Shown here: piece after piece, positions 46,773-63,760 of the stretch | Layout of the letters: each line of letters opens with the position of its first letter | Numbering within the stretch: position 1 is the first letter of the stretch | Assembly (NCBI RefSeq): GCF_013912005.1 | Contig: NZ_JACESB010000012.1 | Location: 1-64,000 of the forward strand | Length of the DNA: 64,000 nt | Direction: 5' to 3' | DNA from: Brevundimonas sp. | GTDB taxonomy: Bacteria; Pseudomonadota; Alphaproteobacteria; Caulobacterales; Caulobacteraceae | The notes under the pieces: generated by a model | The model's input: only the letters and a program-made list of their open reading frames with translations | Told to the model about the DNA's origin: nothing | Databases searched by the model: none | Translations under genes and position numbers: made by a program

Positions 46773-49370
46773 TCAGAGCCCCAGCTTTTTCAGCACCGGC
46801 CGCAGGTCGGCCTCCGCGGCGCGGAAATCCTTCCACGGGTCCGGCTTCTTCAGCAGGGCGGCGGCGTCGTGCAGGGTGTAGGCCTTCGGGTCGAGGCCCT
46901 TCTTCACCTGCCCCCACGACAGGGGGAAGGCGAGTCCGGCGCCCGGCCGCGCCCGCGGCGACCACGGCGCCACCGCGGTGGCCATGCGCCCGTTGCGCAG
47001 GTAGTCGAGGAAGATCTTCCCGCCCCGCGCCTTCTTGGCGAGGGTGGTGGTGAAGCGGTCGGGCTGCGCCCGGCGCATGATCTCCGACACCTCCTTCGCA
47101 AAGGCCTTGCACTGGTCCCACTCGACCCGCGCCTTCGCGTCGGCGCGGATGGGCACGACCACGTGCAGCCCCTTGCCGCCGGTGGTCTTGACGAAGGGGG
47201 TCAGCCCCAGCCCCTCCAGCTCCTTGCGCACCCTCTTCGCGGCGTCGATGACGTCGTCGAAGTCGAGGCCCTCGTCGGGGTCGAGGTCGAAGGTGACCTG
47301 CTCCGGCGTCTCGGGATCGTCGGGCTTGCAGCCCCACGGGTGCAGCTCCAGCCCGCCCGACTGGCCGATGGCCACCAGGCCGCCCGCGTCCGACACGCCG
47401 ACGTAGGGCTTGCGCTCCTTCACGTCGATCAGCTTCAGCCGCGGATTGGAGCCGGGCATGGCGTGACGCTGGAAGAATTTCTCGCCGGTGATGCCTTCGG
47501 GGGCGCGGATGATCGACACCGGCCGGTCGGCCACGTGCGGCAGGAGGCGCTCCGCCGCCATCTCGTAGTAACGCACCAGCTCCGCCTTGGTGATCGCCGG
47601 CTTCCCGTCCGCCGCGGGCCACAGCACCTTGTCGGGGTTGGAGATGGTCACGCCCGAGACGACCAGCTTGCCCTTGCGCGGCCGCTCTCCCGGCACGGCC
47701 AGGCCGGGCAGGTCGGCCGGCGCGCCCGGCTCCTTCGACGCCTTCGACGGCGCCTGCGGCCGGTCCGTCACCTCGGTCGCGGGCTTGTCGTCGCGCAGCC
47801 CCTTGAACGCCGCCTGCCGGATCGAGCCGGTGTCCGTGTAGCCGCCGTGCTCGATCTCGGCGACCAGGGTCGGCGTGGTCCAGTGGGTGCTCAGGCCGGC
47901 GGTCCGGGTCTTCTTCGGCGCCCCCTTGCCGACGAAGGGGCTGCGGTCGGTCTCGGCCGCCTTGAGGGCGGGCAGCAGGGTCTTCAGCAGGGTCTGGTTG
48001 TAGCCGGTGCCGACGCGGCCGAGGTGGCGCAGGCCGTCCTTGTCGCGGACCCCGACGATCAGCGAGCGGAAGCGGCTCCCCTCGGCGGTCCAGCCGCCGA
48101 TGATCACCTCGTCGCGCCCGCGGCACTTGGACTTCAGCCAGGTGGTGGAGCGACCCTCCGTGTACGGAGCGTCCAGCTTCTTGGAGATTACGCCCTCGAG
48201 ATCCATCCGGCAGGCGCTCTCGAGGATGGCCTGGCCGGTGGTGGCGAAGTGGTCGACGTAGCGGATCCGGCCGCGGGCGGCCCTCGGGATGCGGTCGATG
48301 TACGCCTGCAGGCGGGCCTTGCGGTGGGACAGCGGCAGCTTGCGCAGGTCCTCGGGGCCTTCGAAGAGCAGGTCGAAGGCGAAGTAGACCAGCTCGCCGG
48401 TGCGCCGCTCCGAGATCGCCGCCTGCAGGGCGGAGAAGTCCGGCATGTGGTACTCGGCCAGGGCGCACAGCTCGCCGTCGACCACCGCGTCCGGCCATTG
48501 CGCCGCGTCGGCGGCCAGCTCCGGAAATTTGTCGGACCAATCCAGCCCCTTGCGGGTGCGGATCGTGGCCCGCCCGCCCCCGGTCCCCACCTGCAGCCGG
48601 TAGCCGTCGAACTTGATCTCGTGCGCCCAGCCGGTCCCCTGCGGCGGGTAGTCGGCGACCTTGCACAGCTGGATCGGCACGAAGGCGTGCGGCTTGCTCG
48701 CCTGCTCCGTCACCGCCGGGCGCGCCTTCGGCTTCGGCGGGGCCTTGCGCGTGGTCGTCTTCGGCGACCCCCAGGTCTTCTTCCCTTCGGCGATCTCGGC
48801 CAGCGAACGGCCGGTGGTCACCGAGGCGTCGATCTCCATGTTGGCGTCGCCCTCGCCGGGCACGGCGAATTCGTCCTTCTCCTTGATCAGCAGCCAGTTG
48901 TTGCGCTTCGACGGCTTGCCGCGATCGCCCTTCAGCCGGATCAGCGCCCACTTGCCCGACAGCCGCTCGCCGTGGAGCACCATCTTGACGTTGCCGCGGG
49001 CGAAGGCGGCGTCGAGGTCGTCCTCCTGCGGCTCCCATTCGCCGACATCCCACATCTGCACCGTGCCGGCGCCGTAGTTGCCGGCCGGGATGGTCCCCTC
49101 GAACGAGCCGTAGTCGAGCGGATGGTCCTCGACCTCCACCGCCAGCCGCTTCACGGCCGGGTCGCGCGACGGCGCCTTGGTCACCGCCCAGGACTTGAGC
49201 ACCCCGTCCAGCTCGATGCGGAAGTCGTAGTGCAGCCGCGTCGCCGCGTGACGCTGGATCAGGTAGCGCAGGCCCGACTTGCGGGCGCGGCCCTTCTTCC
49301 CCGCGGGCTCGGGCGTGGCGGCGAAATTCCGCTTCTTCTTGTAGGTGTCGAGTTCGCCCTTGGCCGCCAT
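46773..49370 (-). CDS. ligD: Non-homologous end-joining DNA ligase D
   Basis: The 865-residue protein has three domains. The first is a 3'-phosphoesterase (about residues 30-165; the metal-site residues His41, His47, Asp49 and His83 are present). The second is an ATP-dependent ligase (from about 230, with the adenylated Lys253 in EIKFDGYRL). The third is an archaeo-eukaryotic-type polymerase/primase at the C-terminus (from about 570, with DLDPDEGLDFDDV metal aspartates). This is the PE-LIG-POL order of Pseudomonas LigD. It repairs double-strand breaks with Ku. No ku gene lies in this window, although it is often adjacent. The ATG at 49370 is preferred to one six codons upstream. Confidence 0.95.
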   Translation of the reverse strand: MAAKGELDTYKKKRNFAATPEPAGKKGRARKSGLRYLIQRHAATRLHYDFRIELDGVLKSWAVTKAPSRDPAVKRLAVEVEDHPLDYGSFEGTIPAGNYGAGTVQMWDVGEWEPQEDDLDAAFARGNVKMVLHGERLSGKWALIRLKGDRGKPSKRNNWLLIKEKDEFAVPGEGDANMEIDASVTTGRSLAEIAEGKKTWGSPKTTTRKAPPKPKARPAVTEQASKPHAFVPIQLCKVADYPPQGTGWAHEIKFDGYRLQVGTGGGRATIRTRKGLDWSDKFPELAADAAQWPDAVVDGELCALAEYHMPDFSALQAAISERRTGELVYFAFDLLFEGPEDLRKLPLSHRKARLQAYIDRIPRAARGRIRYVDHFATTGQAILESACRMDLEGVISKKLDAPYTEGRSTTWLKSKCRGRDEVIIGGWTAEGSRFRSLIVGVRDKDGLRHLGRVGTGYNQTLLKTLLPALKAAETDRSPFVGKGAPKKTRTAGLSTHWTTPTLVAEIEHGGYTDTGSIRQAAFKGLRDDKPATEVTDRPQAPSKASKEPGAPADLPGLAVPGERPRKGKLVVSGVTISNPDKVLWPAADGKPAITKAELVRYYEMAAERLLPHVADRPVSIIRAPEGITGEKFFQRHAMPGSNPRLKLIDVKERKPYVGVSDAGGLVAIGQSGGLELHPWGCKPDDPETPEQVTFDLDPDEGLDFDDVIDAAKRVRKELEGLGLTPFVKTTGGKGLHVVVPIRADAKARVEWDQCKAFAKEVSEIMRRAQPDRFTTTLAKKARGGKIFLDYLRNGRMATAVAPWSPRARPGAGLAFPLSWGQVKKGLDPKAYTLHDAAALLKKPDPWKDFRAAEADLRPVLKKLGL

Positions 49371-49403
49371 GTCTGCTCGAACGCCCAAGCTGCGCCGTCG
49401 TTG

Positions 49404-50933: not shown

Positions 50934-51458
50934 CTAGTCGAGCGGCCGGCGCATCTCCGCGACCACATCCGCTGGCGGTCGGCTGCTGATCGTCCCCGCG
51001 TTCGCCAGCCACTCGTCCAGTCTCGCGTTGATGGCGCGACAGGGAGCGATGTCGACGACCTGGGCGATGCAGGCGGTCTGCAGCACGAGCACCTCCGCGC
51101 CGGTGCAGGCGGCGCCCTCGCGCCAGCCGGTCTCGCTCAGGCATCCGCGGCCGTAGCGCCAGAAGTCGGCCGACCCTCCGGTGCGGCCGTAGCGCCAGAA
51201 ATAGGCGGAGCCCTCGGTGCGGCCGTAACGCCAGAAGTAGGCCGACCCAATCTGGTCGCCGAAGATCAGGTAATAGAAGGAGCCGGCGCCGCGCCCGTAG
51301 GCCAGCTCGTGGCCGGACGGATAGCGATCGCCATACTCGAAGTAGTGGCGGGAAGTCGGGCCGCGTCCGTACGTCCACTCCTGCTCGCCCCAGGCATGGC
51401 CGGGCCGGTCTTGCGGGGCTGTGGCCAGAACGGCGGCGGCGAGGGCGGCGGCGACCAT
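50934..51458 (-). CDS. Secreted protein of eight 12-residue aromatic repeats, paralogue A
   Basis: The 174-residue protein starts with a short leader (about residues 1-15). Residues 23-118 are eight consecutive 12-residue units in exact register, for example GSAYFWRYGRTE at 71-82 and GSAYFWRYGRTG at 83-94. The consensus is G-S-x-[YH]-[FY]-W-x-Y-G-R-x-x. Position 8 is Tyr or Phe in seven units. The C-terminal part has four cysteines (106, 118, 130, 140) and CRAINARLDEWL. It is not MORN, which has a different length and spacing. I recognise no family. A paralogue lies immediately upstream (51466-51996). Confidence 0.7.
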   Translation of the reverse strand: MVAAALAAAVLATAPQDRPGHAWGEQEWTYGRGPTSRHYFEYGDRYPSGHELAYGRGAGSFYYLIFGDQIGSAYFWRYGRTEGSAYFWRYGRTGGSADFWRYGRGCLSETGWREGAACTGAEVLVLQTACIAQVVDIAPCRAINARLDEWLANAGTISSRPPADVVAEMRRPLD

Positions 51459-51465
51459 CGCCGGC

Positions 51466-51996
51466 TCACCCGTTCGGTTCGCGCATGCGCGCGACGACGT
51501 CCGCGGGATGGCCGGGGCCGTAGAAATCCGAGCGGGACAGCCACTCGTCGAGCCGAGCGTTGACGGCCCGGCAGGGCGCGACGTCGATCTTCCGGGCGAT
51601 GCACAGCACCTGGAAGACCACGGTCTCCCCCGAGCTGCAGGCGGTGGTGTTCGCCCAACCATACCGGCTCAGGCAGCCGCGACCGTTCTCCCAGTAGTAC
51701 CGGCTCCCCGGCTCGCGGCCATTGTCCCAGTAGTAGCGGCTGCCCGGGCGGACCCCGTTCTCCCAGAAGTGCGACGACCCCGCCGAAGTGGCGTTGAAGA
51801 GGTGGTGTATCGAGCCAACCTGCGTGCTGTTGAGCAGATGGTGAGCCGACGGGAACCCGGTCCGGTTCTCGAAATAGTGGCGGGACAGGAAGCCCGTGCC
51901 GTTGACCCACTCGTGCTCGCCCCATCGCGCGGCCTGGCCGGAGGTCGGGGCGGCCGTCTGGGCGGCCAGGGCGAGGGCGAGGGCGGCGGCGAACAT
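51466..51996 (-). CDS. Secreted protein of eight 12-residue repeats, paralogue B
   Basis: The 176-residue protein has a leader (MFAAALALALAAQTAA) and eight units of 12 residues at 25-120, for example GSSHFWENGVRP (73-84) and GSRYYWDNGREP (85-96). The arrangement is the same as in paralogue A, with four equivalent cysteines (108, 120, 132, 142) and the tail CRAVNARLDEWL. Position 8 of every unit is Asn in all eight repeats, where paralogue A has mainly Tyr. The stop is 7 bases before paralogue A begins, so they are probably cotranscribed. No family is recognised. Probable role: an exported binding or structural protein. Confidence 0.72.
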   Translation of the reverse strand: MFAAALALALAAQTAAPTSGQAARWGEHEWVNGTGFLSRHYFENRTGFPSAHHLLNSTQVGSIHHLFNATSAGSSHFWENGVRPGSRYYWDNGREPGSRYYWENGRGCLSRYGWANTTACSSGETVVFQVLCIARKIDVAPCRAVNARLDEWLSRSDFYGPGHPADVVARMREPNG

Positions 51997-52102
51997 CGAG
52001 ACTCCGTCGTGGCGCTGACGCCCCGAGGCTGGAGCGGCGCCGACGCAAGGTCAACGTCGCGGTCCTGTCGGGACCTGACGGCCCGCTGGGGGCCAGTTGC
52101 GC

Positions 52103-53160: not shown

Positions 53161-55548
53161 TCAGCGGGCGTAGCGTTCCTCGACCGGCGCGTAGCGGTCC
53201 CACACCGCGCGGTCGGCGAGCGAGCGCAGCAGCTTGACGTATTCGGCGTGGGTCCAGGCCAGCGGGGTGGCGGAATTGGTGCCTTCGCCGGGCTCGTAGC
53301 CGTGGGCCGTCGGGTGGCCGACGCCGTCCCACGCCTGTTCGGGCAGCAGGAGGCCGCCGTTGGCGAAGGACTCCATGCCCCGCACGTACGTCTGGCGGAC
53401 ACCGTTCAGCTGGGCCTCGGTCCAGCCGGCGTCGGCGGACGGATTGTGCAGGGCGGCCGCCAGTTCGTAATGGCCGCGCTCGCCGGTGAAGAAGGGCCAC
53501 AGCCGGCCGCGCTGGCCGGGGTGCATCTCGCCGCCGACGCCGTAGTTTTCGCCCGTGTCGGTCTGTTCGCCGTAGCCGTCGTTGCCGTAGCGGCGGAAGG
53601 CGGGGACGCCGTTGACGTCGTAGCGGACGCGGAAGCGGTCCTCGCGGGTCTGGTCGTCGTACTCGGGCAGGGAGGCGAGGATGGAGGGGGCGTCGGGGGC
53701 GCGGACGCCGTAGCGGACCAGTTCGAGGAAGCCGCCGTCGACGATCTTGTCTTCCGCATGGGCGGGCTGGCCGTTGTTCTCGCCGATCGGGGCCTTGTCG
53801 TTCGGGTTGTCGTTGCGGGTGATGCGGATGAAGTAGCGGCCGTCGCCCCATTCGCCGTTGGTGGTGAACATCCGCGCCTCGACCCTGGACTCATAATCGT
53901 CGGCGGCGGCCTGGTAGCGGTCGGCCGAGGCCGCGTCGCCCGCGGCGCGGGCGATGTCGGCGGCGGTGACCAGGCCGGCGATGACGGCGGCGGTGGTCGA
54001 GGGGGAATGGCCCTCCTGCTCCTCCCAGCGCTCCTGCTGGGTCCAGGGCGGGGTGACCGTGCGGTCGTTCCACAGCAGGCCGACCGTGCCGCCGTCGACG
54101 AGGAAGTCGGCGGCCGGCTTGATCATGCCGGCGTACATGCGCGCCATCTCGGCGTCGGAGACCAGGCCGGCCTTCCACAGCTTCCAGCCCAGCATGATCG
54201 GCATGGCGGTCTGGTCCAGCTGGACCCCGACCCATTCGATCTCGCCGTCGACGTGGGTCTTCTGCAGGAACCAGCCCGTGGCGCCGGTGTTGCCGGGGGT
54301 CCCGGCGTCGACCTGCACCTGGGGCAGGTAGCGGAAGGCGGCGAGCGGCGTCTCAGTGTCGCCGAGCGCCAGCAGGGCCATGGCCACCTGGTAGAAGTCT
54401 CGCGGCCAGACGGCCTTGTAGCCGGTCGAGGGGTTGGTGGCGTCGACGGTGTCGCCCCACGGATTGGACAGGGAGGCGATCAGGGCGCCGGCGTGGGTGC
54501 GGTCCTCCTGCACCTTGAGCATCAGGGCCGAGACGTACGTCAGCCGGCCGCCGTCGGTGGACTGTTGGGCGAGGCGGGGCAGCTGGTCGAGGGAGGCGAT
54601 GTAGTCTTCCCAGCCCACGCGGTCGCCCTCGCCGTTAAAGCGGCGGAGGACCTCGTCGAGGTCGTCCGTGTGGCTGGCCATGGCGGCGTCGGTCGCGGCC
54701 TCGCGGCTCGACCCGAAGCCAATGACGAAATCGCGGGACAGGTTCTCGCCCGCGCGAAGGGTCGGCAGGGCGCCCGTCAGCATGAGGTTGCCGCCCTGCT
54801 CGCCGGTGGAACGGTAGAGTTGATCGAGGTCGCCGTCGGCGAGATCGGTCAGACCATCGGAGGCCCCGACGAACCCGACGCTGGCGGCCTCGAACGGCTC
54901 GTTCGGAATGAGCGCCAGATGCACGTCCGCCTCGGAGGCGAAGAGCCCCTGCAGGCCCGCGTGGTCCGCGCCCGCGATCGCCTCGCCCCGGTCGCCGACG
55001 CCGGTGTTGGCCATGTGCGGCTCGAGCAGCAGGTAAGGCGTGATGTCTCCACGCAGCGCGCGGATCGTCGTGCGGACCACCAGCGCCTGCCGGTCGGGAT
55101 CCGTGAAGATGCGCTTCTCGATCTCGTAGCGACCGGCCTTGTCGGTGGTGGTCACCCGGTAGGCGGGGGAGAGGGGGCGGCCTTGCGCGTCCACGTGCAG
55201 GTATTCGGTGCGGTGGGTGGTGTCGGCGCCCTCGACCGACAGGCCGTCTTCCGTGACGACGGCGAAGCGCAGTTGCTTGATCTGGGCCTCGTGGATGAGG
55301 CCGTACATGGTCTCGGTCAGGACGCCGTCGGCGATGGAGAACCAGACGCGGCTGACGTCGCCGGTCGGGCCGCCGTCGCGGTACTCGCCTTCGACATAGG
55401 CCTCGTAGGACGCGCCAGCGCCGGTCTTGGCGGCGTTCACCCAGGTGGGCGTCTCGCCGGGCGCGCCGGGGGCGACCTGGGCGAGGGCGGGCGCGGCGGC
55501 CATGAGGGCGAGGGCGGCGACGCCGGAGAGCAGGAGGGGAAGACGCAT
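53161..55548 (-). CDS. Glucoamylase (GH15 glucan 1,4-alpha-glucosidase)
   Basis: The 795-residue protein has a signal peptide ending ALAQ at about residue 24. An N-terminal beta-sandwich domain (about 30-290) precedes the (alpha/alpha)6 barrel of GH15, with WPRDFYQVAMALLALGD, WVGVQLDQTAMPIMLGW, the general-acid region ERWEEQEGHSPST and the base region LLLPEQAWDGVG. It cuts glucose from the non-reducing ends of maltodextrins in the periplasm. The ATG at 55548 is chosen because it begins the signal peptide. The MFS sugar transporter gene lies 8 bases upstream, so both are in the maltose/starch operon. Confidence 0.93.
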   Translation of the reverse strand: MRLPLLLSGVAALALMAAAPALAQVAPGAPGETPTWVNAAKTGAGASYEAYVEGEYRDGGPTGDVSRVWFSIADGVLTETMYGLIHEAQIKQLRFAVVTEDGLSVEGADTTHRTEYLHVDAQGRPLSPAYRVTTTDKAGRYEIEKRIFTDPDRQALVVRTTIRALRGDITPYLLLEPHMANTGVGDRGEAIAGADHAGLQGLFASEADVHLALIPNEPFEAASVGFVGASDGLTDLADGDLDQLYRSTGEQGGNLMLTGALPTLRAGENLSRDFVIGFGSSREAATDAAMASHTDDLDEVLRRFNGEGDRVGWEDYIASLDQLPRLAQQSTDGGRLTYVSALMLKVQEDRTHAGALIASLSNPWGDTVDATNPSTGYKAVWPRDFYQVAMALLALGDTETPLAAFRYLPQVQVDAGTPGNTGATGWFLQKTHVDGEIEWVGVQLDQTAMPIMLGWKLWKAGLVSDAEMARMYAGMIKPAADFLVDGGTVGLLWNDRTVTPPWTQQERWEEQEGHSPSTTAAVIAGLVTAADIARAAGDAASADRYQAAADDYESRVEARMFTTNGEWGDGRYFIRITRNDNPNDKAPIGENNGQPAHAEDKIVDGGFLELVRYGVRAPDAPSILASLPEYDDQTREDRFRVRYDVNGVPAFRRYGNDGYGEQTDTGENYGVGGEMHPGQRGRLWPFFTGERGHYELAAALHNPSADAGWTEAQLNGVRQTYVRGMESFANGGLLLPEQAWDGVGHPTAHGYEPGEGTNSATPLAWTHAEYVKLLRSLADRAVWDRYAPVEERYAR

Positions 55549-55556
55549 GGCGATAC

Positions 55557-57098
55557 TCACGAACGGACGGCGGAGGGGGCGACGGGGACCAGCAGGCTGG
55601 CCCCGGCGGCGATCAGGAAGCTGACGGCGCCGAGGGCGAGGGCCCAGATCGGCCGGCCGCCGAAGACGGCGTTCAGCACGGCGCCCAGGATGGTGGCGGC
55701 GACCAGCTGGGGCACGACGATGAAGATGTTGAAGACGCCCATGTAGAGCCCCATTTTCCGGCCCGGCACGGCGTTCGACAGGATGGCGTAGGGCATCGAC
55801 ACGATGCTGGCCCAGGCGAAGCCGACGCCGATCATCGGCAGCCACAGCCACTGCGGATCGCGGATCAGGAAGACGCCGAGGAAGCCGGCGGCGCCGAGGG
55901 TCAGGTTCAGGGCGTGGGCGCCGCGCAGGCCGGTGCGGTGGGCGATGACCGGGATCAGGAAGGCGGCCATGGCGGCGACGCCGTTGTAGATCCCCATCAG
56001 CACCCCGACCCAGTTGGCGCCCTCGCCGTAGCCGGCCGAGGTCGGGTCGGGCGAGGCGTAGTGGACGGCGGTGACTGCCGGGGTCATGTAGATCCACATG
56101 GCGAACAGGGCGAACCAGCTGAAGAACTGGACCACGGCCAGGCCCTGCATGGTCTTCGGCATGGCGAAGATGTCGCCCATGATGTCGGTCAGGGGATTGG
56201 AGCGGCCGGCGGCGGCGAGGGCGCCGACCAGCATCTGCATCAGCCCGAAGGCGAGGACGAAGCCGGCGAGGACGTAGAGTTCCTTCTGCAGGTCGAAGGC
56301 GCCCACCGCCGCCACGCCGAGGGAGCCGGCGAAGGCCCACAGCAGGCCGCCCGTGTACCAGGCGTTGCGGGAGCGGGCGGCGGCCGGAGCGGGGCCGGCG
56401 TCGCGGGACGTCTCGAAGGCGTCGATCTGTTCGGGGCTGTATTCGCGGGTGGTGAAGACGGTCCACAGCACGGCGGCCAGCAGGGCCGCGGCGCCGACGT
56501 AGAAGGAGAGACGCACCGCCATCGGCACCACCCCCTCGGGGGCGGTGGCGGCGACGTCGAACCACTCGGTCAGGATCCAGGGCAGGCAGGAGGCGAACAC
56601 CGCCCCGGCGCCGATGAAGAAGCTCTGCATCGCATAGCCCGTGGTGCGCTGCTCCTCGGGCAGGTTGTCGCCGACGAAGGCCCGGAACGGCTCCATTGTG
56701 ATGTTGATCGAGGCGTCCATGATCCAGAGCATGGAGGCCGCCATCCAGAGCCACGGGCTGTGCGGCATGACGACCAGGGCGAGGGTCGTCAGGATGGCCC
56801 CGGCGAGGAACCAGGGCCGGCGGCGGCCCAGCCGGGTCCAGGTGCGGTCGCTGAAATAGCCGACGACCGGCTGGACCAGCAGGCCGGTCAGGGGGGCGGC
56901 GATCCACAGGATGGCGAGGCTGTCGACCTCGGCTCCCAGGGTCTGGAAGATGCGGCTGGTGTTGGCGTTCTGCAGGCCGAAGCCGATCTGGATGCCGAAG
57001 AAGCCGACGCACATGTTCCAGATCGACCAGCCGCTGAGGCGGGGTCGGACGGCGGCGGCGGCGCCGGGGGCGAGGCCTTCAGGAGTCGTGGTGGTCAT
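55557..57098 (-). CDS. MFS sugar transporter, maltose/sucrose type (SLC45-like)
   Basis: The 513-residue inner-membrane protein has twelve membrane helices and the pattern of glycoside/proton symporters: GFGLQNANTSRIFQTLGA in helix 1, LTGLLVQPVVGYFSDRTWTRLGRRRPW between helices 2 and 3, and MEPFRAFVGDNLP. In Caulobacter, a homologous MFS protein in an equivalent locus imports maltose. It lies between the GH97 gene and the glucoamylase gene on the same strand. Substrate by context is maltose or short maltodextrins. No sequence feature narrows it further. Confidence 0.9.
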   Translation of the reverse strand: MTTTTPEGLAPGAAAAVRPRLSGWSIWNMCVGFFGIQIGFGLQNANTSRIFQTLGAEVDSLAILWIAAPLTGLLVQPVVGYFSDRTWTRLGRRRPWFLAGAILTTLALVVMPHSPWLWMAASMLWIMDASINITMEPFRAFVGDNLPEEQRTTGYAMQSFFIGAGAVFASCLPWILTEWFDVAATAPEGVVPMAVRLSFYVGAAALLAAVLWTVFTTREYSPEQIDAFETSRDAGPAPAAARSRNAWYTGGLLWAFAGSLGVAAVGAFDLQKELYVLAGFVLAFGLMQMLVGALAAAGRSNPLTDIMGDIFAMPKTMQGLAVVQFFSWFALFAMWIYMTPAVTAVHYASPDPTSAGYGEGANWVGVLMGIYNGVAAMAAFLIPVIAHRTGLRGAHALNLTLGAAGFLGVFLIRDPQWLWLPMIGVGFAWASIVSMPYAILSNAVPGRKMGLYMGVFNIFIVVPQLVAATILGAVLNAVFGGRPIWALALGAVSFLIAAGASLLVPVAPSAVRS

Positions 57099-57127
57099 GA
57101 AGGCCTGCCTCCCCGCAGGTCGGTGGT

Positions 57128-59206
57128 TCAGCGCCGGCCGCGGCCGAGGGGCACGAAGCGGATGGCCTGGCCGCCGCCGGGGGCGAGGCGCAGGGTCAGG
57201 ACGTCGGCCGAGGTCACCTCGCGGGTCGAGATGTCGATGGCCGTGCGGTTGTCGGTGAAGTTGGCCCCGGGGCCGTCGGCGTAGATCTCGGCGCGGTAGC
57301 GGCGGCCGGGGTCGAGGAAGCCGAGGGCGGCGGTGAGGACGCGCGGCTGCTCGTCGGTGATCGCGCCGAGGAACCATTCGTCGGAGTTGCGGTCCTTGCG
57401 GGCGATGGTGACGAAGTCGCCGACCTCGCCGTTCAGCACCCGGGTCTCCTCCCAGTCGACGGCGACGTCCTTGATGAACTGGAACGGGGCCGGGTTTGCC
57501 TCGTAGTTCTCCAGCAGGTCCGCGGCCATCTGGATCGGGCTGTAGATGACGACATACAGCGCCAGCTGCTTGGCCCAGGTGGTGGCCACGCCCTCCGGCA
57601 CCCGGGTCTCCATGCCGAAGATGCCCGGCGTGTAGTCCATCGGCCCGGCCAGCAGGCGGGTGAAGACCAGGTTGGGCTCGTGCTCCGGCGGATTGGCCGG
57701 CTGGCCCCAGGCGGCGTACTCCATGCCGCGCGCGCCCTCGCGGCTGATGATGTTCGGATACGTCCGGCGCAGGCCGGTGTCCTTGATCGGCTCGTGGGCG
57801 TTGACCGCGACCTCGTACCGGGCGGCCGTCTCGACGACCTTCAGGTGGTGGCGGGCCATGTGCTGGCCCTCGTGCCAGGCCAGCGCCGAGCCGCCGTCGC
57901 CGGTCGCCACGCGCGCCCCGCCGGCGTCGGCGACATAGCCGGTCTTCACCGAATGCCAGCCGTGCCGCTGCATCAGGGCGAAGGCGTCCTCGAGCTGCTG
58001 TTCGTAATGGAAGGCGTTGCCGCCGGTCTCGTGGTGGCCGACGATCTCGACCCCCTTCTCGCGGGCGTAGGCGGCGACGCGTTCGATGTCGAAGTCCGGA
58101 TAGGGCTGGGTGAAGCTGTAGTCCCAGCCGGAGCCGAACCATTCGCCGTCCCAGCCGACGTTCCAGCCCTCGACCAGCACCCCGCCGAAGCCGTGCTCGG
58201 CCGCGAAGTCGATGTGGCGCATCGTGTATTCGGTGGTCGCGCCGTGCTTCGGCCCCGAGTTCCAGCTGCGGGTGTCGAGGTGCATGTCCCACCAGATGCC
58301 GACGTATTTCATCGGCCTGAACCAGCTGACGTCGCCCAGCTTGTTGGGCTCGTTGAGGTTCAGGATCAGGCTGGACTCGACGAGGCCGCCGGCCTGGTCG
58401 GCGATCTGCAGGGTGCGCCAGGGGGTGTGGAAGGGGGCTTCGCGGACCACCGCGGCGCTGGTCAGGCCCGGGGTCAGCATGGCGCGGAATTTGCCGCCCT
58501 CGACCCGGCGCAGGTTCATGCCCGAATAGTCGACCAGGGCCGCCTCGTGGATCGACAGATGGGTCCCGTCTTCCAGCCGCATGGTCAGGGGCGTCTGGCT
58601 GACGCCGACCGAGGCGATCGGGGTCCGGTTGTAGAGATATTCGGCGCGGTTGTACTCGAAGGCCGGCAGCCACCAGGCCGTCCCGGCCGCGTCGGCGAGA
58701 TTGAACTCGGTCAGTTCGGCGCCGATGTTGACCGTCTTGAGCTCGGGCTGTTCGGGGAATTCGTAGCGGAAGCCGAGGCCGTCGTCATAGAGGCGGAAGA
58801 CCACGTCCATGCGCCGCATCAGGCCCCAGCGCTCCTGCAGCTGGACGCGCAGCTCGTTGTAGCGGTTGCGGATGAAGCGGCGCTCGCCCCACGGCTGCTC
58901 CCAGGTGTCGTCGTGGCTGGTGACGGTCTGCCCAAGGATGCCGAAGGCGCGCTCCAGCTTGCGGGCGTCGGTGAGCAGGAAGCCCAGCCGCGACTGGGCG
59001 ATGACCTGTCGTCCGAGACGGTGGACCGAGTACGAGACGAAGCCGTCGTTGTCGGCCTCCAGCTCGACGGAGATCACGCTCTCGGGCGAGGCGGCGCGGG
59101 CGACCCCGGGCTGCGCGCCGCCGGCCGGGGCGTCCTGGGCCGAGGCGGCGACCGGAACGGCGGCGACCGCGGCGCTGGTGGTGATCAGGGAACGGCGGTT
59201 GATCAT
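57128..59206 (-). CDS. susB: GH97 alpha-glucosidase (SusB-type)
   Basis: The 692-residue protein begins NRRSLITTSAAVAAVPVAAS, a twin-arginine-like signal. The GH97 catalytic barrel shows VEGWNVGWDGEW, VGHHETGGN, NAHEPIKDTGLRRTYPN and REGARGMEYAAW. The glutamates in HHE, HEP and the EGARGMEY segment correspond to those of the inverting SusB enzyme rather than the aspartate nucleophile of the retaining GH97 branch. It hydrolyses maltose and maltodextrins in the periplasm. It is divergent from the LacI gene, and overlapping TTTGC palindromes lie between them. It is the first gene of a leftward operon with the MFS importer and glucoamylase. Confidence 0.92.
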   Translation of the reverse strand: MINRRSLITTSAAVAAVPVAASAQDAPAGGAQPGVARAASPESVISVELEADNDGFVSYSVHRLGRQVIAQSRLGFLLTDARKLERAFGILGQTVTSHDDTWEQPWGERRFIRNRYNELRVQLQERWGLMRRMDVVFRLYDDGLGFRYEFPEQPELKTVNIGAELTEFNLADAAGTAWWLPAFEYNRAEYLYNRTPIASVGVSQTPLTMRLEDGTHLSIHEAALVDYSGMNLRRVEGGKFRAMLTPGLTSAAVVREAPFHTPWRTLQIADQAGGLVESSLILNLNEPNKLGDVSWFRPMKYVGIWWDMHLDTRSWNSGPKHGATTEYTMRHIDFAAEHGFGGVLVEGWNVGWDGEWFGSGWDYSFTQPYPDFDIERVAAYAREKGVEIVGHHETGGNAFHYEQQLEDAFALMQRHGWHSVKTGYVADAGGARVATGDGGSALAWHEGQHMARHHLKVVETAARYEVAVNAHEPIKDTGLRRTYPNIISREGARGMEYAAWGQPANPPEHEPNLVFTRLLAGPMDYTPGIFGMETRVPEGVATTWAKQLALYVVIYSPIQMAADLLENYEANPAPFQFIKDVAVDWEETRVLNGEVGDFVTIARKDRNSDEWFLGAITDEQPRVLTAALGFLDPGRRYRAEIYADGPGANFTDNRTAIDISTREVTSADVLTLRLAPGGGQAIRFVPLGRGRR

Positions 59207-59269
59207 CGGGGGAGGCTCCGGATAACGGGACTTGCCAAGCGCGGCCGCAGCGGCGCAGAACAAGCAAGG

Positions 59270-59286
59270 TTTGCAGCAAAATTTGC
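59270..59286. promoter_or_regulatory. Overlapping LacI-type operators between GH97 and LacI genes
   Basis: TTTGCAGCAAA at 59270-59280 and GCAAAATTTGC at 59276-59286 are both perfect odd-length palindromes and overlap. They lie between the divergent GH97 and LacI-family genes, so the LacI-family protein may control both directions. Confidence 0.65.
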
Positions 59287-59313
59287 AGCCGTGCCATTCG
59301 CGAGAAACGAAAC

Positions 59314-60324
59314 GTGAGCCGCCGCAACACCCGCCTGGAGGATCTGGCCCGGCTGGCGGGCGTATCGATCTCGACGGCGTCGCGCGCGCTCAACGACAGC
59401 CCGGCGGTCAACGCGCGGACCAAGCAGCTGATCTGGAAGCTGGCGCGCGAGCACGACTATCCCTTCCGCCGCTACATGCCCTCGGGCCCGGTCGGCGCCG
59501 AGGGCGTGATCGCGCTCGTCACCCCGCGCCCGCAGGGCCGGGAGGGGCGGCTGAGCGATCCCTTCTTCCTCGAACTGCTGGCCGGCGTCGGCGAGGCGGC
59601 GCGGGAGCGCGGCTGCGACGTGATCATGAGCCACTTCTCGCCGACCAGCTACGACGACCTGGTGGCGGCGATGAACACCCGCGCGGACGGGGTGATCTTC
59701 CTCGGCCAGAGCTTCCTGCACCAGAGCCTCAACCGGCTGGCCGAGACCGACGGGCGCTTTGTGGTCTGGGGCGCCCAGATGCCGGACCAGCTCTACTGCT
59801 CGGTCGGATCCGACAACCTCGCCGGCGGCCGACGCGCCACCCGCCATCTCGCCCGGCTGGGCCGGCGTCGCATCGTCTTCCTCGGCGACCTCGATCCGCC
59901 CGAGGCCATGCAGCGCCACCGGGGCTACCTCGAGGCGCTGGAGCAGACCGGCCTGGGCGTCGATCCCGACCTGATCATCGAGGCGCATTTCGAGGTGGAG
60001 TCCGCCGAGGCCTCGGTGGACGGGCTGATCCGCCGCGGCGTGCCGTTCGACGGCGTCGTCTGCGCCTCGGACCAGATCGCGCTCGGGGCCGTCCGGGCCC
60101 TGCTGCACGCGGGCCTGCGGGTGCCGGAGGACGTGTCGGTGATCGGCTTCGACAACGTCCCGTTCAGCCGCTACGCGCGCCCGGCCCTGACCACCATCGC
60201 CCAGGACACGATGAAGGCGGGGCGGCTGCTGGTCTCCAAGCTGATCGACAACCCCGGCGACTCGGTCGGCCGGTCGGAACGGATCCCGACCGACCTGATC
60301 GTGCGCGAGAGCTGCGGCGGCTAG
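59314..60324 (+). CDS. malI: LacI family transcriptional regulator of maltose/starch genes
   Basis: The 336-residue protein has the N-terminal LacI helix-turn-helix LEDLARLAGVSISTASRALN with the hinge region after NARTKQLIW, then a periplasmic-binding-like sensor domain with VGSDNLAGGRRATRHL, RRRIVFLGD and SVIGFDNVPFSRYARPALTT. The start is a GTG at 59314. It sits among maltose and starch hydrolase genes on the opposite strand, so it likely represses them until maltose or a derivative binds. TTTGC palindromes lie directly before it. The name malI is a proposal from context, as in Caulobacter. Confidence 0.88.
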   Translation: MSRRNTRLEDLARLAGVSISTASRALNDSPAVNARTKQLIWKLAREHDYPFRRYMPSGPVGAEGVIALVTPRPQGREGRLSDPFFLELLAGVGEAARERGCDVIMSHFSPTSYDDLVAAMNTRADGVIFLGQSFLHQSLNRLAETDGRFVVWGAQMPDQLYCSVGSDNLAGGRRATRHLARLGRRRIVFLGDLDPPEAMQRHRGYLEALEQTGLGVDPDLIIEAHFEVESAEASVDGLIRRGVPFDGVVCASDQIALGAVRALLHAGLRVPEDVSVIGFDNVPFSRYARPALTTIAQDTMKAGRLLVSKLIDNPGDSVGRSERIPTDLIVRESCGG

Positions 60325-60326
60325 AG

Positions 60327-61952
60327 TCATCCCTCGGCCAGCACCAGTCCCGCCGCCGGCGGCAGGGCGGCTCCGGAACCGGAGGGCAGGTTGACGCTCT
60401 CGACCAGCCGCCAGCCCCGCGGCGGCGCCCACGCCACCGCCTCGCGGCCAAGGTTGAAGGCGCAGAGCAGGCGCTCGCCGCCGAGGATGCGTTCGAAGCA
60501 GACCATCCCTTCCGGGGCCTCAAGCAGGCGCATCTCCCCGCGCGCGAGGGCCGGATGGGCCTTGCGCAGGGCGATCAGGCGGCGGGTGGCGTGGAGCATG
60601 GAGGCGGGGTCCGCCTCCTGCCGGTCGACCGCGAGGTCGACGTGGCGCGGATCCACGGGCAGCCAGGGCCGGCCGGTGGAGAAGCCGGCCTCCGGCGCGT
60701 CGGCCTTCCACGGCATCGGCGTGCGGGCGCCGTCGCGGCCCAGCGTCTGGGGCCAGTTGGCGATGGCCTCGGGATCCTGCAGCCGCTCGAACGGCACCTC
60801 CGCCTGCGGCAGGCCCAGCTCCTCGCCATAGTAGACGAAGACGTTGCCGCGCAGGCACATCAGCAGCAGCATGGCCATCTCGGCGAAGGCGCGGGGATCG
60901 CGCTCGCGGGCCCAGCGCGAGATCGCCCGCGGCGCGTCGTGGTTGGAGAAGGTCCACGAGGGCCAGCCCTGGCCCTCGCGGCCGTGCCAGGCCTCGGCCC
61001 CCTGGCGGACCAGCTGGCACTCCAGCGTCGGGGCGTAGAGGTAGAGAAAGCCGTAGGCGCTGTTCAGCCGGTCGTCCCCGGCGGTGAAGGCCTGCATCTC
61101 CCGCTCCGCGTGGTCGCCCCCGACCTCGGCCACCGAGAAGCGGCCGCCATAGCTGTCGGTCAGGGCGCGGATGCGCTTCAGGAAATCGACGATGGCCGGA
61201 TGCGACTGGTTGTGGACCTTGTCCTGGAAGTCGAACGGCCGGGTCCGCTTGCCGCCCGGCGGCAGCGGCGGGTTGTCCCGCAATTGCGGGTCATGCATGG
61301 CGAAGTTGATGGCGTCGAAGCGGAAGCCGTCGACCCCGCGCTCCAGCCAGAAGCGCGCCACGTCCAGCAGGGCGTCCTGCACCGCCGGATTGTGCACGTT
61401 CAGCTGCGGCTGCTCGGGCAGGAAGTTGTGCATGTAGTACTGGCCGCGGCGGGCGTCCCAGGTCCAGGCGGGACCGCCGAACACCGACTGCCAGTTGGTC
61501 GGCGGCGAGCCGTCGGCCCGGGCGTCGGCCCAGACGTACCAGTCGGCCCTGTCGCCGGTGCGGGACTGGCGGCTGTCGCGGAACCAGGGGTGCTGGTCCG
61601 AGGTGTGGGCGAAGACGAGATCGATGATGATGCGCAGCCCCAGCCGGTGCGCCTTCAGCACCAGGGCGTCGAAGTCGGCCAGCGTGCCGAAGATCGGGTC
61701 GACGTCGCAGTAGTCGGCGACGTCGTAGCCGAAATCCTTCATCGGGGAGGTGAAGAAGGGGCTGAGCCAGACGGCGTCCACCCCGAGGGAGGCGATGTGG
61801 TCGAGGTGCTCGGTCACGCCCTTCAGGTCGCCGACGCCGTCGCCGTTGGTGTCGGCGAAGCTGCGCGGATAGACCTGATAGACGACGGCCCCGCGCCACC
61901 ATTCGGCGGCGTCGGCTTCGGCGGCGGGGGAGGCGAGAATCTGGGCGGTCAC
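60327..61952 (-). CDS. GH13 alpha-glucosidase (oligo-1,6-glucosidase type)
   Basis: The 541-residue enzyme has no signal peptide, so it acts in the cytoplasm. The GH13 motifs are VYQVYPRSFADTNGDGVGDL, the nucleophile Asp213 in GFRFDAINF, the acid/base Glu276 in VAEVGGD, and Asp339 in FSNHDAPR, with a C-terminal beta-domain. It hydrolyses maltose or isomaltose-type linkages to glucose. Its start overlaps the stop of the alpha-amylase gene by 4 bases, so both are translationally coupled. The released glucose would enter the Entner-Doudoroff route via glucokinase. Confidence 0.93.
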   Translation of the reverse strand: MTAQILASPAAEADAAEWWRGAVVYQVYPRSFADTNGDGVGDLKGVTEHLDHIASLGVDAVWLSPFFTSPMKDFGYDVADYCDVDPIFGTLADFDALVLKAHRLGLRIIIDLVFAHTSDQHPWFRDSRQSRTGDRADWYVWADARADGSPPTNWQSVFGGPAWTWDARRGQYYMHNFLPEQPQLNVHNPAVQDALLDVARFWLERGVDGFRFDAINFAMHDPQLRDNPPLPPGGKRTRPFDFQDKVHNQSHPAIVDFLKRIRALTDSYGGRFSVAEVGGDHAEREMQAFTAGDDRLNSAYGFLYLYAPTLECQLVRQGAEAWHGREGQGWPSWTFSNHDAPRAISRWARERDPRAFAEMAMLLLMCLRGNVFVYYGEELGLPQAEVPFERLQDPEAIANWPQTLGRDGARTPMPWKADAPEAGFSTGRPWLPVDPRHVDLAVDRQEADPASMLHATRRLIALRKAHPALARGEMRLLEAPEGMVCFERILGGERLLCAFNLGREAVAWAPPRGWRLVESVNLPSGSGAALPPAAGLVLAEG

Positions 61953-63760
61953 TCGGAGCCTTCTGAAACGCAGACGACATAGCCCAGGGCGGGCACGGAG
62001 ACGGAGACCGCCCCCGGGGCGGCGGCGCGGGAGGGACAGTGCCCCAGCGCGGCGCGCCAGGCGAGGGAGTCGACCTCCACCGGCACGTTGACGTCGCGCG
62101 GGGCGGTCGAGGTGTTGAAGACGACGAGGGTTTCGCCGGCCGCGTCGAGGCGCGAGAGGGCGAGGACGCCCGGCTCCTGGTCGGCGACGCGCACCCGCAC
62201 CTCGCCGCGGCGCAGGCGGGGATCGGCGGCGCGGACCCGGGCCATCTCCGCGATGCGCCGGTACATGTCGGCGTTGGTATCAAAGGGGCCGGCGGCGGAG
62301 CCGATGCGGCGGTCGTCGGCGTAGGCGGCGACACGGGTCTCGAACATGTCCTGGCGGGCGCGGCGGTCGTCGCCGTCGCCGGTGAAACCCTGCTCGTCGC
62401 CATAGTAGATCACCGGCACGCCGCGGCCCAGCAGGACCAGGGCGTGGGCCAGGGTCGCGCGGTCCAGCAGTTCGGCGTCGGAGACGTCGGGCATGGCGTT
62501 CAGGATCAGGTGGCCGATGCGGCCCATGTCGTGGTTGCCGGTGAAGGTCGGCAGCCGGCGCGCCGTCTCCACCCCGCCGGCGTAGATGGCGTCCTCCATC
62601 AGCAGGTAGCCCATGGCGTCGGGGTGCTGGACGCCCGTGACCATGTTCTGGACGACGCGCTGATAGGCGAAGTCGAGCACCGTCGGCAGGCCGTCGACGA
62701 CCGTGTGCATGGCCGCCGCGCCCGACTGGAAGTCGTAGGTCTCGCCGAAGATGTGGAAGTTCGGAATGCCGCGGGCCCGGGCGCGCTCGAGGATGGCCGG
62801 GACGAAGGCCTGCCAGAACTCCGGATTGACGTGGCGGGCGGTGTCGATGCGGAAGCCGTCGATCCCGTAGTCGTCGATCCAGGCGCCGTAGACGTCGATG
62901 AAGCCCTCGATCACGCGCGGGTGCTCGGTGAACAGGTCGTCGAGCCCGGCGAAGTCGCCGTCCATGCGGGCCTCGCCGTACCAGGCGCTGTTGCCGCGAT
63001 TGTGGTAGAGGCCGACGTCGTTCAGCCAGGCCGGGACCTTGACCGTCTCCTCGCCGGCGGGGACGTACGGCGTGTACGCGTAGTCGGGGCGCGTCAGGGT
63101 CGAGAAGTCGCTCCCGGGCTCGCCGGTGAAGCCGGGGTTGATCGGCTGGCCGTCCAGGCCCCCGCGGCGCTGGTACGGATAGTCGCCCTTCCAGCGGTAG
63201 CCGCAGTCGTTCTCCGGGCATTCCCGATAGCGGATGACGTCGGCCGTGTGGTTGATGACGATGTCCAGATAGACCTTCATCCCGCGGGCATGGGCCGCCT
63301 CCACCAGGGCGCGGAAGTCGTCATTGGTCCCGAAATGCGGATCGATCCGGGTGAAGTCGGTGATCCAGTAGCCGTGGTAGGCGGCGCTCTCGTGGCCCGG
63401 CGGCCCCTGCACCGCCTTGTTGACGAAGGGCGGGGCGATCCACAGGGCGGTGACGCCGAGGCCCTGCAGATAGTCGAGCCGCCCCGTCAGGCCGGCGAGG
63501 TCGCCGCCGTGGTAGAAGCCGGGGTCGGCCGGATCATGGCCCGTCACGAGCCGGTCGCCCGCGAGCCCGCCGCGATCGTTCGAAGGGTCGCCGTTGGCGA
63601 AACGGTCGGGCAGCAGGAAGTAGATGACCTCGTCCTCGGGCAGCCGGTCGCGCAGACCGGAGCCGGGCGACTGGGCCCCCGCCGGCGCCGCGAACGCCGC
63701 CGCCGCGGCGGCGATCATGAGCGCGCGTGAGACGCGCGACGGCCGGAACCGTGCGGGCAT
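61949..63760 (-). CDS. Secreted alpha-amylase (GH13)
   Basis: The 603-residue protein has a signal peptide ending APAGAQ near residue 29. The GH13 motifs are present: DIVINHTAD, the nucleophile region DGFRIDTARHV, the acid/base HIFGETYD and the third carboxylate in FTGNHDMG. A C-terminal all-beta domain follows. It cleaves starch or maltodextrins outside the cytoplasm to feed the GH97 and GH15 enzymes and the MFS importer. It leads an operon with the GH13 glucosidase. The start codon is the first base of the signal peptide. Its upstream region holds TTGCA/TGCAA operators. Confidence 0.93.
   Translation of the reverse strand: MPARFRPSRVSRALMIAAAAAAFAAPAGAQSPGSGLRDRLPEDEVIYFLLPDRFANGDPSNDRGGLAGDRLVTGHDPADPGFYHGGDLAGLTGRLDYLQGLGVTALWIAPPFVNKAVQGPPGHESAAYHGYWITDFTRIDPHFGTNDDFRALVEAAHARGMKVYLDIVINHTADVIRYRECPENDCGYRWKGDYPYQRRGGLDGQPINPGFTGEPGSDFSTLTRPDYAYTPYVPAGEETVKVPAWLNDVGLYHNRGNSAWYGEARMDGDFAGLDDLFTEHPRVIEGFIDVYGAWIDDYGIDGFRIDTARHVNPEFWQAFVPAILERARARGIPNFHIFGETYDFQSGAAAMHTVVDGLPTVLDFAYQRVVQNMVTGVQHPDAMGYLLMEDAIYAGGVETARRLPTFTGNHDMGRIGHLILNAMPDVSDAELLDRATLAHALVLLGRGVPVIYYGDEQGFTGDGDDRRARQDMFETRVAAYADDRRIGSAAGPFDTNADMYRRIAEMARVRAADPRLRRGEVRVRVADQEPGVLALSRLDAAGETLVVFNTSTAPRDVNVPVEVDSLAWRAALGHCPSRAAAPGAVSVSVPALGYVVCVSEGSE

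Follow-up and report, generated by a model that had tools for sequence, protein, structure and literature searches.

Tandem Brevundimonas genes encoding putative exported repeat proteins with a 12-residue, possibly alpha-solenoid, unit

A tandem gene pair with eight repeat units per protein

The window analysed here is the whole 64,000-nucleotide stretch of a Brevundimonas sp. contig (NZ_JACESB010000012.1, positions 1 to 64,000 of the forward strand). Its minus strand carries two adjacent genes, A and B, whose products are 48% identical and are organised as a leader, a repeat block and a C-terminal tail. The features of the pair are given below.

52002..52005, minus strand: GGAG, ribosome-binding-like site 5' of B, assigned from the sequence
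51466-51996, minus strand: gene B, Asn-type, upstream gene of the pair, 176 aa
51925..51996, minus strand: hydrophobic leader of B, presumed Sec signal peptide, residues 1-24, assigned from the sequence; pLDDT below 50 over residues 1-21
51637..51924, minus strand: repeat block of B, residues 25-120, eight 12-residue units, assigned from register and AlphaFold2 (one predicted 6-residue helix each)
51469..51636, minus strand: C-terminal tail of B, residues 121-176, three predicted helices
50934-51458, minus strand: gene A, Tyr-type, 174 aa; its start lies 7 bases past the stop of gene B
51393..51458, minus strand: hydrophobic leader of A, presumed Sec signal peptide, residues 1-22, assigned from the sequence; pLDDT below 50 over residues 1-18
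51105..51392, minus strand: repeat block of A, residues 23-118, eight 12-residue units, assigned from register and AlphaFold2 (one predicted 6-residue helix each)
50937..51104, minus strand: C-terminal tail of A, residues 119-174, three predicted helices; starts as a ninth register unit ending in Cys

The original prediction had placed tandem genes at these coordinates, each with eight 12-residue units in unbroken register, and this was borne out by the self-identity of the repeat region at a lag of 12 residues, which was 0.45 in A and 0.48 in B as compared to a maximum of 0.25 and 0.21, respectively, over lags 6-30 in 2000 shuffles of each. The units had been called exact, which is true of their register but not of their sequence, as units within one protein differ at many sites. 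The register was also retained in close homologues, all 11 full-length copies of the family having eight units. When the 72 units of nine representatives were pooled, position 2 was Ser in 63 and Gly in the remaining nine, all of them unit 1, and position 9 was Gly in 62. Conservation over positions 2-9 showed a periodicity peaking at 90-100 degrees per residue, and 0 of 5000 permutations was as high in the alpha band. The corresponding P for positions 1-9 was 0.011, and the linker positions showed no helical periodicity of conservation (P 0.91). The aromatic fraction of the family proteins was 0.12-0.17, which would be in keeping with ligand binding.

The tail had been described as containing four cysteines. 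Four are indeed present, at mature residues 84, 96, 108 and 118, and are invariant in 11/11 full-length copies, but two of them occupy position 12 in units 7 and 8. The third (mature residue 108) matches, in register, the position 12 that a ninth unit would have, and thus the register extends into the tail.

For the A and B genes of three genomes (G000, G010 and G215), third-position GC was 0.86-0.91, and it ranged from 0.80 to 0.92 across the 11 full-length copies. GGAG was present just upstream of the start in seven of the eight first or only family genes, the exception being that of G150, and was absent before all four second genes of pairs. The dN/dS of the repeats was 0.07-0.28 in the six gene pairs compared, in which the repeats are under purifying selection. 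The third-position GC, the GGAG before the starts and the low dN/dS of the repeats therefore make the genes look real. The tail evolved faster in several comparisons. Its dN/dS was 1.92 and 0.85, against 0.07 and 0.09 for the repeats, in two B pairs (including the B genes of L024 and L025); the counts are small, the value of 1.92 representing ten base changes. The tail was also faster than the repeats in the G179/G203 pair (tail dN/dS 0.56), but did not outpace them in all A pairs.

The leaders are hydrophobic and Ala-rich, and a basic residue near the start is missing in most of them. Judged from the look of the leader alone, A and B are putative exported proteins, probably so. The mature proteins are poor in Lys, with 0-2 Lys vs 12-18 Arg in the 11 copies; this shortage is only partly unusual because the proteins of the neighbouring amtB and epimerase genes are also Lys-poor (1.4% and 1.8%, respectively; 8.3% for ligD).

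Distribution and gene neighbourhood of the family

Profile searches found credible relatives only in Brevundimonas, in 8 of the 131 genomes of the genus. A two-unit profile, built from 17 of the 44 possible two-unit pieces, returned the same eight carriers among the 131 genomes and 6/110 among the more complete ones. A profile search of Caulobacterales had been suggested, with an unnamed family occurring mostly in pairs as the supporting outcome. The family did not range over the order but turned up in just part of one genus, and intact pairs were in the minority: two intact copies were present in three of the eight carriers (G000, G010 and G215), an intact and a truncated copy in one (G150), and a single copy in the other four (G006, G040, G179 and G203), G006 and G040 being less than 80% complete. 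In the second family gene of G150 (L018:2035-2478), the leader is joined in frame to unit 7, units 1-6 are missing and the first Cys is replaced by Ser. This second gene has the appearance of a Tyr-type copy that is decaying or has been minimised.

At the level of the taxonomic family, 9 of 390 genomes had a match, which came down to the eight carriers once G214 was set aside. The G214 match (E 0.003), as well as one in G154 (E 0.012), contained an internal stop and was taken as chance. Among 398 genomes of the order, 22 had a match at E up to 0.1; four of these were carriers and the other 18 gave partial matches (E 0.0015-0.09), 11 with internal stop codons. Seven partial fragments, one of them from the family-level search, were inspected as translations. 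The two-unit profile, run on 180 genomes of the order, gave nine matches in 8 further genomes, covering 11-20 positions at E 0.002-0.05, which were likewise taken as chance. Two partial matches only (E 0.007 and 0.009) were obtained from 385 genomes of the class, and nothing beyond the carriers from 398 genomes of the phylum. A scan of public contigs yielded six loci, all belonging to known carriers; viral contigs contained no relatives, nor did phages and plasmids when queried with A only.

Two features of the window flank the gene pair.

46773-49388: LigD, with phosphoesterase, ligase and primase-polymerase domains
53164-63760: starch utilisation cluster, comprising a GH15 gene with glucodextranase N domain, a transporter-like protein, GH97, a LacI-type regulator and two GH13 genes

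GH15 and epimerase genes adjoin the family in four of the eight carriers (G000, G010, G006 and G215), and the gene order in G040, G150, G179 and G203 is greA, family, ligD. The fuller starch cluster with an NAD-dependent epimerase lies beside the pair in G000, as seen in the window, and in G215; the contigs end in G010 and G006. The cluster was not found in the stretches examined on the two sides of the family gene, which covered roughly 18 and 20 kb in G150, 19 and 14 kb in G179 and 9 kb each in G203; the contig of G040 is too short to show it either way. The link to glycans is therefore weak, and a glycan ligand for A and B is a guess. The ligD gene lies directly downstream of the family gene(s) in four carriers. 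Nine of 12 chosen non-carriers had a ligD match; neither a family gene nor greA was seen in the 1.5 kb or so around it, and in one of the non-carriers (G032) amtB adjoins ligD. The neighbourhood does not settle the function of the family.

History of the family and the residue at position 8

In the protein tree, which was midpoint-rooted, the A genes, the gene of G006 and the truncated G150 copy formed a Tyr-type clade with support of 100/100, the truncated copy being placed within it with weaker support (84/86) and on a long branch. Since G150 also has an Asn-type gene upstream, the A/B duplication is probably older than the G150 lineage. A ligD tree was built from six carriers (G010 and G215 were left out) and nine chosen non-carriers, among which the G183 row had a very long branch. 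The carriers lay on one side of a branch with a modest support of 69/46, recovered in 67% of bootstraps, and 0 of 500 shuffles was as low. This tree is consistent with a single origin of the family.

Position 8 had been described as Tyr or Phe in seven of the eight units of A and Asn in all eight of B. This is what the proteins contain: units 1-8 of A read Y,Y,Y,F,Y,Y,Y,E, and all eight units of B have N. At units 1, 2, 3, 5, 6 and 7, Tyr was found in 3-4 of the 4 Tyr-type members vs Asn in 6-7 of the 7 others. The joint difference between the clades at position 8 is real. The further claim, that the repeats of each protein have changed together, stands as regards this joint Asn/Tyr difference, but the change may partly reflect gene conversion among units 5-7. 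The direction would be from Asn to Tyr if the midpoint root is accepted.

There is a nearly even chance that position 8 changed together by gene conversion between units and not by selection of the side-chain ladder as a set. Under a strict rule, five of the 11 clade-specific residues fell at position 8 (P 0.007 for any position reaching five), and this excess fell to a count of 2 (P 0.74) when units 5-7 were excluded. The Ser codons of position 2, which are either AGC/AGT or TCN, also change together with those of adjacent units: in the A proteins of G000 and G010, unit 7 carries TCG, resembling units 5-6, and unit 6 of the B clade carries AGC/AGT, resembling unit 7. The identity of individual units is partial, with 5 or 6 of the 8 units best matching the same place in five protein pairs. 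However, Tyr is present in the Tyr-type clade at units 1 and 3 as well and, less strictly, at unit 2, and unit 1 of A resembles the first units of B and of G179 more than it does any other unit of A, the identity results for units 2 and 3 being mixed. The G040 protein, which reads H,Y,H,F,N,N,N,D, also argues against conversion, as its H and Y units are one base from Asn. A more far-reaching history, of which we are doubtful, is that a new protein fold, the 12-residue one-helix alpha-solenoid, arose recently in one Brevundimonas subclade by amplification of a 36-base unit, followed by duplication and by exchange of the whole Asn ladder for Tyr.

Predicted fold, proposed role and comparison with known repeat proteins

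AlphaFold2 gave the same secondary structure for A and B, with one six-residue helix (positions 3-8) in each unit followed by a helical tail. The mean pLDDT was 87.1 for A and 84.0 for B, and the pTM 0.81 and 0.79, respectively; per ten-residue block over the repeats, pLDDT was 88-97 in A and 86-97 in B except for its first block (74). The fold comes from one predictor, run on ten-row alignments of related sequences, and only the secondary structure of the best model was used. The predicted helices are regular, eight per protein at a spacing of 12 residues in both models. Thus, of the regular stacked fold that had been anticipated, the regular spacing of one predicted helix per unit was obtained for both proteins, and the helices may stack. 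The Ser and Gly that flank each predicted helix would be suited as helix caps.

We consider it unlikely that AlphaFold2 produced these helices as an artefact of the repeats, the real structure being a beta-solenoid or in part disordered. Just ten sequences were aligned for a single predictor, and the available portion of PMC11795689 documents confident but unrealistic AlphaFold2 beta-solenoids for random perfect repeats, as well as one random 13-residue repeat that was an alpha-solenoid by AlphaFold2 and a beta-solenoid by AlphaFold3. The weakness described in that portion is, however, mainly towards beta-solenoids of perfect repeats, whereas the repeats of A and B are imperfect and were predicted as helical in both. 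In addition, the helix-cap residues and the alpha periodicity are visible in the conservation of the sequences.

Our preferred reading of the family, which is confined to one genus in the searches made, is an exported alpha-solenoid whose unit is unusually short and which is probably a binding scaffold. For A and B themselves, we put the chance that they are exported, disulphide-stabilised alpha-solenoids with a 12-residue unit at about even, and are less sure of the binding-scaffold role. The register, the limits of the family within the searched data and the consistent helical prediction are well supported; export, disulphides and binding we infer. Each unit would combine a six-residue helix at positions 3-8 with a linker of six residues, and the tail would have three longer helices. 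The stacked helices would make up a rod that the tail closes, each helix being capped at its start by Ser2 and ended by Gly9, with position 6 (Trp, Leu or Phe) forming the core, and the Cys of the last rungs may staple the rod to the tail via disulphides. With less confidence, the rungs may display repeated strips made up of positions 4 and 8 (aromatic or His; Asn or Tyr) and of the variable positions 3, 7, 10 and 11. Such strips could serve to bind an extended ligand outside the cytoplasm, possibly a glycan, and the ligand could differ between Asn-type and Tyr-type copies. The fixed number of like helical units, the conserved core position and the variable polar positions would be compatible with a binding scaffold.

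A different role for the repeats, as a structural lattice and not a ligand surface, would follow if A and B bound each other as a heterodimer or formed a surface or periplasmic polymer. In G000, G010 and G215 the genes keep one order with 7 bases between them, and the spacing is 6 bases in G150, where the second copy is truncated, which would suit such an assembly. We nevertheless consider it improbable, as half of the eight carriers have only one family gene; two of those single-copy genomes are less than 80% complete, yet both gene neighbours are on the same contig.

If the alpha-solenoid model is right, the unit is shorter than the alpha-solenoid units described in the available text of PMC11514114, and it combines a simple helix-capping pattern with a fixed copy number. 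The confinement of the family to part of one genus makes it suited to studying the beginnings of a repeat fold. The unit could also serve as a template for designed binding scaffolds, and the Asn-type/Tyr-type pair offers a natural comparison of the role of a repeated side-chain strip.

Neither A nor B had a significant match in Pfam, NCBIfam, PHROGs, PADLOC or PDB sequences. In Pfam at E up to 10, A matched only Imm31 (E 7.1) and B nothing, and the single weak match for 10 members was Anophelin (E 0.13), HMMER filters dropping most matches above about 0.1 in both searches. The best E in PHROGs was 0.27, for B only. The best match among PDB sequences, a carotene oxygenase (E 0.013), was taken as chance. 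Foldseek at E 0.001 gave no PDB match for A or B and none in the viral library for A, a result that excludes no family. The view that no known repeat class fits was upheld, as there was no significant match to a described repeat family, including the MORN, WG, pentapeptide, LRV, Sel1 and TPR models of Pfam. Among the literature matches listed, we found neither a description of the family nor a 12-residue one-helix unit.

MORN, WG and pentapeptide proteins consist of short tandem repeats with aromatic or glycine residues, but of other periods and with beta folds; short repeats are what they share with A and B, whereas periods and fold differ. The LRV repeat has a 24-residue unit of alternating alpha and 3-10 helices, or about one helix per 12 residues, as predicted for A and B. 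It is leucine-rich and has two helix types, in contrast to the like aromatic 12-residue units, the Cys and the leader of A and B, which had no Pfam LRV match.

A solenoid is also known from the same genus. According to the available portion of PMC13123833, the recently solved Knotted Solenoid (9RDS, 9QIX and 9SOJ) is a small protein of unknown function, with 43% of its members from Brevundimonas, a dimer with coils of three beta-strands, a trefoil knot, a conserved Phe-x-x-Cys opening coils 2-4, a Gly-Pro where the knot core begins, and no disulphides seen. That the present family has this fold is very improbable indeed, for in spite of the shared genus bias and solenoid architecture, the coils described in that portion are beta-strands where both A and B models have predicted helices, and F-x-x-C is absent from A and B. 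A Gly-Pro pair is present in each of A and B, but is not placeable without a shared fold. With the beta fold, knot, dimer and F-x-x-C described there setting the Knotted Solenoid apart, no relation was found.

The alpha-solenoids of TPR, Sel1, PPR and ARM proteins are alike in having tandem helix-loop units that form an elongated scaffold, and many of them bind proteins, peptides or RNA. The available text of PMC11514114 gives units of 31-36 residues for PPR, 36-44 for Sel1 and 42, with three helices, for ARM, and of 5-40 residues for class III solenoids in general. As compared to these 31-44-residue PPR, Sel1 and ARM units, A and B have 12 residues with one predicted six-residue helix. Pending experiment, A and B may represent a new alpha-solenoid repeat family.
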